Shown here: positions 1-29,253 of the stretch, in pieces
Layout of the letters: the number at the start of each line of letters is the position of its first letter
Numbering within the stretch: the first letter of the stretch is position 1
From: Desulfuromonadales bacterium
GTDB lineage: Bacteria > Desulfobacterota > Desulfuromonadia > Desulfuromonadales > Syntrophotaleaceae
Assembly (NCBI GenBank): GCA_003561875.1
Contig: PWVL01000183.1
Span: forward strand, 1-41,060
Reading direction: 5' to 3'
DNA: 41,060 bases
Translations under genes and position numbers: made by a program
The notes under the pieces: generated by a model
What the model saw: the letters and a program-made list of their open reading frames with translations, nothing else
What the model was told of the DNA's origin: nothing
The model's database searches: none

Positions 1-118
1 GTGCGGCGTACCGATGTACGCCTCCGCGCAACCCTTTGATTTCCTTGCCACAACGAAAAATTGCTCGTTTCCCATATGAAAACTGCGCTGTGTCCATCCG
101 GAGTTTCCGGATGGACAC
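1..118. repeat. 118-bp dispersed structured repeat, copy 1
   Basis: These bases match 28162-28279 at 117 of 118 positions; the only difference is C at 66 versus G at 28227. The unit holds a short hairpin (GGCGTAC at 5-11 with GTACGCC at 16-22, loop CGAT) and ends with a perfect 13-bp hairpin (GTGTCCATCCGGA at 90-102 with its complement at 106-118, loop GTT). The copy begins at the window edge, so it may extend further left. It lies 27 bases beyond the stop of the minus-strand MscS gene, with the 13-bp hairpin nearest the stop. There is no U-tract, so it is not a classical terminator. REP-like or MITE-like element is the best guess. Confidence 0.9.
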
Positions 119-145: not shown

Positions 146-964
146 TCAGGCGGCGGGCTTGTCCGCGGCCTGAATGAGGTGTACGTCCTGTTGCGGGAAC
201 GGAATGGAGATGCCTTCCTTGTCGAAGCGGGTCTTGATCGTTTCCAGGGTATCAAAATAGGTCGGCCAGTAATCGCTGCCATTGACCCAGGGGCGGAAAG
301 CGAAATTCAGGCTGCTGTCGGCCATTTCCAACAGCGCCACGACCGGAGCGGGATCTTTGAGAAAACGCTCCTCGGCGGCGATGATGTCGAGCAGAACCTG
401 TTTCACCTTGCGAATGTCGTCACCGTAGCTGACACTGATCACCAGGTCCATGCGCCGGGTTCCCTTGGTGCTGTAATTGATGATGTTGCCGCCAAGCAGG
501 GCGTTGTTGGGGACGATGACGGTTTTGTTGTCGGGAGTTTTCAGCTGGGTGCTGAAAATCTTTATTTCCTCGACGGTTCCGGCAATGCTGGCGCCTTCGA
601 TGAAGTCTCCGGTTTTGAAGGGTTTGAACAGAACCATCAGCACCCCGGCGGCGAAGTTGGCCAGAGAGCCCTGCAGGGCGAAACCGACAGCCAGGCCGGC
701 GGCGCCGATGACCGCGATCATCGATGTGGTCTGAAAGCCGATCTGGTTGAGGGCGGCGATTACCACGAAAACTACCAGCGCGCCGTATGCCAGGTTGGCG
801 CAGAAGCCGACCAGGGTTGGGTCGACCTGACGGGAGTTGAGTAACTTGCGCAGCAATCCGGTCAGCAGTTTGCTGACCCAGATCCCGATGACCAGAATGA
901 GTATGGCACCGAGCAGGCGCAGACCGTACAGCGTTAACCATGCGTTGATTGTCGACATATTCAT
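146..964 (-). CDS. mscS: MscS family small-conductance mechanosensitive channel
   Basis: This encodes a 272-residue inner-membrane channel that opens under membrane tension to release osmolytes during hypo-osmotic shock. The length is close to E. coli MscS. Three N-terminal hydrophobic segments are visible. The third, pore-lining one is rich in Gly and Ala (GAAGLAVGFALQGSLANF region, about residues 90-115). It is followed by the beta domain with a VPNN motif and a C-terminal mixed domain ending near GISIPFPQ. I chose the ATG at 964 because a perfect AGGAGG lies five bases upstream; a longer frame to 1063 lacks such a site. The gene is divergent from the MFS transporter, with 171 bases between the starts. 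Family assignment is firm; the ion preference is not readable. Confidence 0.93.
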   Translation of the reverse strand: MNMSTINAWLTLYGLRLLGAILILVIGIWVSKLLTGLLRKLLNSRQVDPTLVGFCANLAYGALVVFVVIAALNQIGFQTTSMIAVIGAAGLAVGFALQGSLANFAAGVLMVLFKPFKTGDFIEGASIAGTVEEIKIFSTQLKTPDNKTVIVPNNALLGGNIINYSTKGTRRMDLVISVSYGDDIRKVKQVLLDIIAAEERFLKDPAPVVALLEMADSSLNFAFRPWVNGSDYWPTYFDTLETIKTRFDKEGISIPFPQQDVHLIQAADKPAA

Positions 965-1054
965 CGTGTCCTCCTGGAAAGAAAAAGAGTGTGCAGGGAC
1001 AAAGGTCCTGCGGATGGCATGCAGCGCCCGGCTCACAAAAACCCTGCCATGGAA

Positions 1055-1084
1055 ATTAAACAATAAAGACCCCCTTTAATGCAA
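1055..1084 (-). promoter_or_regulatory. Possible sigma70-type promoter for mscS
   Basis: On the minus strand TTGCAT (1079-1084) and TTTAAT (1055-1060) are separated by 18 bases, about 90 bases upstream of the MscS start. The -10 is a good match and the -35 is weak. This is inference from spacing only. Confidence 0.3.
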
Positions 1085-27425: not shown

Positions 27426-28013
27426 TTAGAGCTTGATGACGCAGCTGCCGGAAATCTTGTCGTGCAGGCCCTGCTTGCGTTCATCAAAGGCGACCATCAG
27501 GTAACCGATGCCGAGCAGGATTCCCGAGAGGAATTTGCCGATGATTTCCCGCAGGGCCGCCTTGCCGTAGCCCAGTTCGCTGCCGTCGACGGCAATGACC
27601 TTGATGCGCAGGGCCATCTTGCCCAGGGTCTGGCCACAGGAACCGGTGAAGATAACGTAGTAAAGAACGCTCAGAACGCTGCTGAACATCCAGATCAGAA
27701 TCACTACCGACCCTTCCGAGCGGCTCATGCCGCCGAAAAACGAGCCGCTGATGCCGAGTATCAGGCCGCTGAAAAGCTGCAGAAAAAAAACCACAATGGA
27801 ATCGATAAGGGAGGCGACCACCCGTAGCCAGAATCCGGCATAGCAGCCTGCTGCCTTCGAGGCCGCCGCGTCGGTCTTTTCCGGCCCCGGTTGCGGCTTT
27901 TCGAAAGGAAAGGACTGGCCGCAGCTCGGACAACGGACCTGGCGGGTATTGGCCGGTATGGCAGTCTCGGCTACTTCCTTGCTGAAGCCGCAATGGGGGC
28001 AGCAGAGGTTCAT
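27426..28013 (-). CDS. RDD family membrane protein with N-terminal zinc finger
   Basis: This encodes 195 residues. The N-terminus is an MJ0042/zinc-ribbon-like finger with Cys5, Cys8, Cys28 and Cys31. A linker with acidic and Ala-rich residues leads to the RDD domain, whose three or so membrane segments include the motif [12 protein letters not shown] and the end [15 protein letters not shown], both signatures of the family. RDD proteins are poorly characterised; some act as transporters or in ion tolerance. It lies between argF and argG, 62 bases from argG, in the same direction. A role in arginine metabolism is not implied. GGATGAC before ATG 28013 is the likely ribosome site. Confidence 0.86.
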
Positions 28014-28096
28014 GTCATCCTCCCGAATTCGTTTTCATCCGGAAACGGCCCTTTTCCACTGTAGCGGCGTCAATCTACAGGTTTGCTTGTGACTCG

Positions 28097-28139
28097 GACC
28101 ATCCCTGGCCCTCGCCCTTCGGGCAGCCAGGGGCTGTCC
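28097..28139. other. Nested hairpin beside the repeat
   Basis: Outer arms CCCTGGC (28103-28109) and GCCAGGG (28126-28132) enclose GCCC/GGGC (28114-28117 and 28121-28124) with loop TTC; GGAC and GTCC extend it. It lies 22 bases before the 118-bp repeat copy 2. It may be part of a longer repeat unit whose equivalent would fall left of the window for copy 1. Confidence 0.6.
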
Positions 28140-28161
28140 ATTTCCTCTATCCTGTGAAAAT

Positions 28162-28279
28162 GTGCGGCGTACCGATGTACGCCTCCGCGCAACCCTTTGA
28201 TTTCCTTGCCACAACGAAAAATTGCTGGTTTCCCATATGAAAACTGCGCTGTGTCCATCCGGAGTTTCCGGATGGACAC
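28162..28279. repeat. 118-bp dispersed structured repeat, copy 2
   Basis: This is 117/118 identical to bases 1-118 and carries the same two hairpins; the 13-bp one is at 28251-28279. It begins 8 bases beyond the argF stop, again with the 13-bp hairpin nearest the stop. A short reverse frame runs through it (28070-28279), but its composition and the repeat structure make coding unlikely. Confidence 0.9.
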
Positions 28280-28287
28280 GAATTTGA

Positions 28288-29196
28288 TTATTTCATCAGG
28301 GTGGCCATGATGGCTTTTTGAACATGCAGGCGGTTTTCCGCCTCATCGAAAACCACCGAATGAGGCCCCTCGATCACCTCATCGGTGATTTCCTCGTCAC
28401 GATGTGCCGGCAGGCAGTGCAGCACGATGCACTCGGGGTCGGCCACCTCAAGCACCTCGCGGTTAATCTGAAAACCGGTGAAGGCCTTTTCGCGGGCTTT
28501 TTGTTCCTGCTCCCGGCCCATGCTGGCCCAGACATCCGTATTCAGCACCTGGGCGCCGCGGGCCGCCTGCAGCGGATCATTGGTGTAGGTGATGCGGGCC
28601 CCCATCCTTTCGGCACGGGAGCGGACCCCGGGATCGGGCTCGTAACCGACGGGGGTGGCGATCCGCAGTTCAAACCCGAATACCGCGGCGGCATTGATCC
28701 AACTGTTGGCCATGTTGTTGCCGTCACCGATCCAGCAGTAGGTCTGATTCCGATAGTCCTGTTTGTGTTCGATGACGGTAAAAAGATCGGCCATCAACTG
28801 GCAGGGATGGAAGCTGTCCGTCAGGCCGTTGATGACCGGAATGTCCGAAAGCCGGGCCAGTTCTTCCACGGCCGCATGGGAAAAGGTGCGAATCATGATG
28901 CCGTCCACGTAACGGGACATGACCCGGGCGGTGTCCTTGATCGGTTCGCCCCGACCCATCTGGGTGGTGCTTGAGGAAAGGAACAGGGCATGACCACCGA
29001 GCTGGTACATGCCGACTTCAAAAGAAACCCGGGTGCGGGTCGAGCTTTTCTCAAACAGCATCCCCAGGGTTTTGCCCTTGAGCAGGTGATGGCTTTCTTG
29101 CCGCTTCTGCCTGGCCTTGAGATCCCGGGTCAGGTCAAAAATGGCCTCAAGCTCCGCGACGGTCCAGTCGGTAAGGCAGAGAAAGTCCTTTTTCAC
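28288..29196 (-). CDS. argF: Ornithine carbamoyltransferase
   Basis: This enzyme transfers the carbamoyl group to ornithine to give citrulline. It has 302 residues. The carbamoyl phosphate site STRTR (in KSSTRTRVSF), the HPCQ motif, and HCLPAHRDEE near the C-terminus mark it as the ornithine rather than the aspartate enzyme. The second of two GTG codons, 29196, has AGGAGG seven bases upstream and gives the typical KKDFLCLTD opening; the first GTG (29202) is too close to that site. It follows argD by 57 bases. The 118-bp repeat sits directly behind its stop codon. Confidence 0.96.
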   Translation of the reverse strand: MKKDFLCLTDWTVAELEAIFDLTRDLKARQKRQESHHLLKGKTLGMLFEKSSTRTRVSFEVGMYQLGGHALFLSSSTTQMGRGEPIKDTARVMSRYVDGIMIRTFSHAAVEELARLSDIPVINGLTDSFHPCQLMADLFTVIEHKQDYRNQTYCWIGDGNNMANSWINAAAVFGFELRIATPVGYEPDPGVRSRAERMGARITYTNDPLQAARGAQVLNTDVWASMGREQEQKAREKAFTGFQINREVLEVADPECIVLHCLPAHRDEEITDEVIEGPHSVVFDEAENRLHVQKAIMATLMK

Positions 29197-29253
29197 GATC
29201 ACTCCTCCTGATTTCAGGTAAAGGGAAAGACGACGGATGAAAAAAGACCGCCG

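Follow-up and report, generated by a model that had tools for sequence, protein, structure and literature searches.

Two repeat families described in Geobacter are among the closest known to the element reported here. The genome paper of Geobacter metallireducens (2009) includes 24 predicted short RNAs with a central palindrome, GRCGTAGCGCTGCTACGCC (PMC2700814, Additional file 4). Chunjie, a MITE of Geobacter uraniireducens, has terminal inverted repeats (TIRs) and direct repeats and measures 178-235 bp, as summarised in a later paper (Chen et al., 2008, cited in PMC10969869). According to the same summary, Correia, ERIC and QMITE are short, folded, intergenic MITEs present in many copies (PMC10969869), while the RAYT-associated REP sequences are palindromes of 20-40 bp (PMC3733652). 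Our element resembles Correia, ERIC and QMITE in being short, folded, intergenic and multicopy. To our knowledge, these three are unrelated to it by sequence and differ from it in ends and target.

The window analysed here, a stretch of 41,060 nucleotides, is the whole of contig C163 in a draft Desulfuromonadales genome (239 contigs, 89% completeness). The original prediction, a near-identical 118-bp repeat pair, is confirmed by direct comparison of positions 1-118 and 28162-28279, which match at 117/118 positions. Both copies contain the perfect 13-bp stem (GTGTCCATCCGGA-AAC-TCCGGATGGACAC) and the smaller GGCGTAC/GTACGCC hairpin that had been proposed, and both, as proposed, come after stop codons and read on the minus strand, where the 13-bp hairpin leads. 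Copy 1 lies 27 bp after the mscS stop, and copy 2 lies 8 bp after the ornithine carbamoyltransferase stop. The limit of 118 bp is wrong: when the copies are aligned with their flanks, identity runs on to position 28031, which gives a longer element of 249 bp with the 118-bp repeat as just its left portion. Because the contig ends inside the element, copy 1 begins with the first base of the window. Long and short forms part at about position 119, where many contigs break; both the 118-bp boundary and these breaks are explained by the divergence of the 249-bp and 176-bp forms at this point.

The element is multicopy, as expected. A genome-wide BLAST search gives about 30 further strong copies, with E values down to 1e-57, many of them at contig ends. 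Counted by left ends, there are at least 24 copies in the genome. The remaining matches are right-end fragments, possibly parts of these 24 copies. Three size classes coexist (249, 176 and 29 bp). Alignment of the long and short forms shows that the 176-bp form is devoid of a 73-bp insert (Table 1). The 29-bp form, which corresponds to the product expected from a deletion between two direct TCCGGATG repeats within the element, was predicted and then found, and three of the four such forms are flanked by clear direct repeats. The claim that the repeat is non-coding also stands, no ORF of at least 80 aa being wholly contained in the element at either 176 or 249 bp.

The ends of the element are 16-bp imperfect TIRs, GTGTCCATCCGGAAAC...GTTTCCGGATGAAAAC, identical at 14/16 positions. 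Copy 2 is flanked by an imperfect 6-bp target duplication (5/6), and paired element ends from many genomes have 6- or 7-bp direct repeats at both sides. Such duplications are exact in 37/73 paired elements, compared to 0.04% of the random positions used as a control; about half of the paired copies are without an exact duplication, which, like the inexact one at copy 2, speaks against the MITE reading, and many of these are one base off. The duplicated target has the consensus TAGCTA, which is common to the target duplication (TSD) profiles of the MITE and of the IS described below. In the relative G007, three 175-bp copies are arranged head-to-tail with a spacing of 181 bp, leaving approximately one target duplication between them (L190, C1:1298616-1299152).

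Both insertion sites of the window are empty in the congener G001, where the ornithine carbamoyltransferase gene (89% identical) is directly followed by the next gene and the mscS gene (90% identical) by unrelated sequence. The window insertions are therefore recent. Downstream of both host genes, no element was found in more distant relatives either. The TIRs, the 6-bp duplications, the empty congener sites and the matching autonomous IS all support the earlier proposal of a recent, multicopy, MITE-like element. A 249-bp copy adjoins mscS in G007 too, on the 5' side of the gene (L157, C1:621877-622125); it is an independent insertion near the same gene.

The autonomous IS was found in G007, as four 1683-bp copies in the fetched half of the chromosome, flanked by 6-bp duplications (TAGCTA/TAGGTA/TAACTA). 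Its left end is GTGTCCATCCGGAAAC, identical to that of the MITE over 16 bp. Its transposase, which contains a DDE domain, matches NF033593 (NCBIfam ISNCY) with an E value of 6e-145 and is related, at about 50% identity, to those of the rhizobial ISRm17 and ISRtr6; in Rhizobium, ISRtr6 carries a related end, GTTTCCGTCC, preceded by CTAGCTA. Across the class, every ISNCY copy readable at both ends shows the same ends and target. The MITE and ISNCY of the ISRm17/ISRtr6 type (NF033593) thus have in common the GTGTCCATCCGGAAAC end, duplications of 6-7 bp and a TAGCTA-like target, but the MITE codes for nothing; only the ends match, and its interior was not seen to derive from the IS. In the window's own genome, one IS end and the first 25 aa of the transposase, flanked by CTACCTA, are present at the end of contig C32 (L206), which stops inside the IS; no complete ISNCY copy is assembled in this draft. 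A partner search by TIR spacing in two other genomes, G003 and G004, found no autonomous element.

Table 1. Coordinates of the element copies, their parts and the neighbouring genes in the window; the last row gives a different repeat from another genome.
Feature	Position	Strand	Basis
Copy 1, element positions 1-118, remainder lost at contig start	1..118	-	BLAST and covariance-model match ending at contig edge
Copy 2, complete long form, 249 bp	28031..28279	-	Copies with flanks, TIR pairing, match to covariance model positions 1-176 (163.9 bits)
Left terminal inverted repeat GTGTCCATCCGGAAAC, same as left end of ISNCY element	28264..28279	-	Copies with flanks; IS comparison
Right terminal inverted repeat GTTTTCATCCGGAAAC, 14/16 to left one	28031..28046	+	End comparison
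13-bp terminal hairpin (left end palindrome), copy 2	28251..28279	-	Folding
Apical hairpin GGCGTACATCGGTACGCC, matching central palindrome of Geobacter predicted-RNA family	28166..28183	-	Folding, covariance model
73-bp hairpin-forming insert, long form only	28089..28161	-	Long/short form alignment
Target duplication, low-coordinate side, GAATTC, 5/6 to other side	28025..28030	.	Flank comparison
Target duplication, high-coordinate side, GAATTT	28280..28285	.	Flank comparison
13-bp terminal hairpin, copy 1; next to it TAGTTA (minus strand), in agreement with target consensus	90..118	-	Copies with flanks, target profile
mscS-type channel gene, upstream of copy 1 (host gene, outside element)	146..1063	-	
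Ornithine carbamoyltransferase gene, upstream of copy 2 (host gene)	28288..29202	-	
Zinc-ribbon/RDD gene, downstream of copy 2 (host gene)	27426..28013	-	
MITE-like repeat with ends GGAGCCTGTCGGACTT (G186)	L421:2061-2228 and three more places in L418-L437		

All these comparisons point to the element being a non-autonomous transposon (MITE) moved in trans by an ISNCY DDE transposase of the ISRm17/ISRtr6 type, a reading to which we give a probability of about 0.88. The ends, the duplications, the empty sites, and the ends and target in common with the IS are read from sequences, and from them we infer that the ISNCY transposase does the moving. The element would insert at TAGCTA-like sites, mostly intergenic, with duplication of 6 bp (sometimes 7), and would be mobilised by ISNCY transposase supplied in trans; the 29-bp remnants would arise by deletion between the direct TCCGGATG repeats. 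Our best guess is that the fold could keep read-through transcripts harmless or protect the RNA or DNA of the element, rather than serve one host gene. Knowing the element's ends and target rule, and having a candidate transposase, makes its mobility open to testing.

By covariance model search, the element is present in 186/277 genomes of the class, as well as in further genomes of the phylum outside the class; among the hosts with names are Geobacter, Oryzomonas and many Desulfuromonadales assemblies. The ISNCY transposase, in contrast, is found in only 14/277 genomes of the class, and some genomes rich in element copies, such as G095, have none; this counts against the ISNCY reading. Where the transposase is absent, another transposase may move the element, or the IS may since have been lost.

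The wide distribution includes two Geobacteraceae loci (L271 and L319) in which the palindrome GRCGTAGCGCTGCTACGCC is located at the model's apical hairpin. The predicted RNAs of Geobacter share with the element this palindrome at the apical hairpin and a multicopy, intergenic occurrence, and the two are probably the same family or sisters. They differ in being described as RNA, with no mention of transposon ends or duplications in the part of the source devoted to them (PMC2700814), and some Geobacteraceae matches consist of the core only (model positions 47-166). A GC-rich copy at L319:2145-2265 covers these positions only, without transposon ends, and the same core-only matches occur in other genomes. 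Chunjie is another candidate for a previously described relative: compared by its summarised description only, it is likewise a MITE with TIRs and direct repeats, of similar size and from a related host. A second MITE-like repeat, of about 168 bp and with other ends (GGAGCCTGTCGGACTT), is present in four copies in 400 kb of G186, where our element occurs once. We describe a new family, or extend the description of one, within a known kind of element, a structured MITE served by ISNCY ends; its unusual part is the depth of fold conservation. Our results join a multicopy Geobacter repeat annotated as a predicted regulatory RNA with ISNCY transposons, a link that was not found in the literature searched.

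The fold raises the question of a function of its own. The 249-nt copy folds with z = -7.1 relative to shuffled sequence, as a 13-bp hairpin followed by a single long, branched hairpin that starts near position 36 and extends to the end. In an alignment of 57 distinct relatives, standard pairs fill 94% of pair cells, and 35/53 pairs show two-sided changes; this alignment was fitted to the covariance model, which favours the result somewhat. These values are well above those of shuffles and of slid-partner controls, where 37-50% of pair cells are standard. In an independent sequence alignment of 20 copies, 20 pairs show two-sided changes. It is a puzzle that the folded interior of a non-autonomous element is deeply conserved, far beyond the spread of its transposase. 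One explanation could be a mobile structured-RNA gene, whose hairpin-first transcript would have its own function, for the host or selfish, and which the transposon ends would just spread. The fold and its covariation favour this explanation, as does the fact that the Geobacter copies were called predicted short RNAs (PMC2700814). It is also favoured by an excess of G-U over mirror A-C on the hairpin-first strand, for pairs of both strands, of 67 to 30 in the sequence-only alignment and 55 to 13 in the model-fitted one, yet of just 16 to 11 when the first 20 sequences are taken. This bias had first been seen on pairs chosen by RNAalifold, shrank to 16:11 on pairs common to both strands and grew again as sequences were added; it could partly come from choosing and aligning sequences by a model of that strand. 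As a hint of selection on an RNA, or on this strand as single-stranded nucleic acid, it is suggestive only. Against an RNA gene, no sigma-70-like promoter was found in the window copy, orientation relative to genes is not constant, and Rfam gives no match at gathering or relaxed thresholds. Moreover, both copies are absent at the same sites of the congener, so that they are not fixed host genes. We consider an RNA gene unlikely, though the best placed of the alternatives. Equally doubtful is the stronger form of this idea, namely that a structured RNA of about 176 nt, kept up throughout a bacterial phylum by one-strand compensatory change, spreads as a cargo of ISNCY-type ends and outlives the transposase.

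The position of both window copies after stop codons could point to a 3'-end element, either terminator or mRNA stabiliser, under selection at gene ends. Along 1.6 Mb of G007, none of 37 copies is inside a predicted gene (gene calls by a simple script). They are distributed among tandem (27), divergent (6) and convergent (4) gaps, against a background of 73/15/12%, without enrichment in convergent gaps. Orientation is mixed, 9 copies being oriented with the genes and 18 against, and in the window's own genome 16/24 copies have the hairpin end turned towards the 3' end of a gene and 8/24 towards a 5' end (p = 0.15). The orientation of the element relative to genes is thus not fixed. When G007 and the window's own genome are combined, 18/59 gene-3'-facing cases have an element end at most 10 bp from a stop codon, but 0/58 cases have one that close to a start codon (p = 2e-6), in apparent support of a role at gene ends. 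This proximity, however, is not confined to one end of the element and agrees with the TAGCTA target: elements come to lie next to stop codons because a TAGCTA-like target frequently contains one (TAG). In addition, no U-tract matching a terminator follows the hairpin on the minus (gene) strand of copy 2, and the congener is devoid of both copies. The background gap proportions, the mixed orientation, the p value of 0.15 and the missing U-tract leave the predicted 3'-end RNA stabiliser unsupported; gene-end function was rejected on the orientation statistics of G007 and the own genome, and we regard it as improbable. Placement after stop codons, as a caution, need not mean gene-end function. 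Least probable is a REP/RAYT-type palindrome or an IS200/IS605-like single-strand element, which would agree with a hairpin at one end and a multicopy, intergenic occurrence, but is contradicted by the TIRs, the 6-bp duplications and a DDE-type IS sharing the element's ends; the label REP is also wrong in size and structure for complete elements of 176-249 bp.

Finally, when phage and plasmid collections were searched, the element had no match in the former, and the latter gave nothing besides a weak match of the 73-bp insert to an Aeromonas caviae record (80% over 64 bp). This insert forms a hairpin and has CAC at both borders; it could be another repeat that has inserted itself into the first one.
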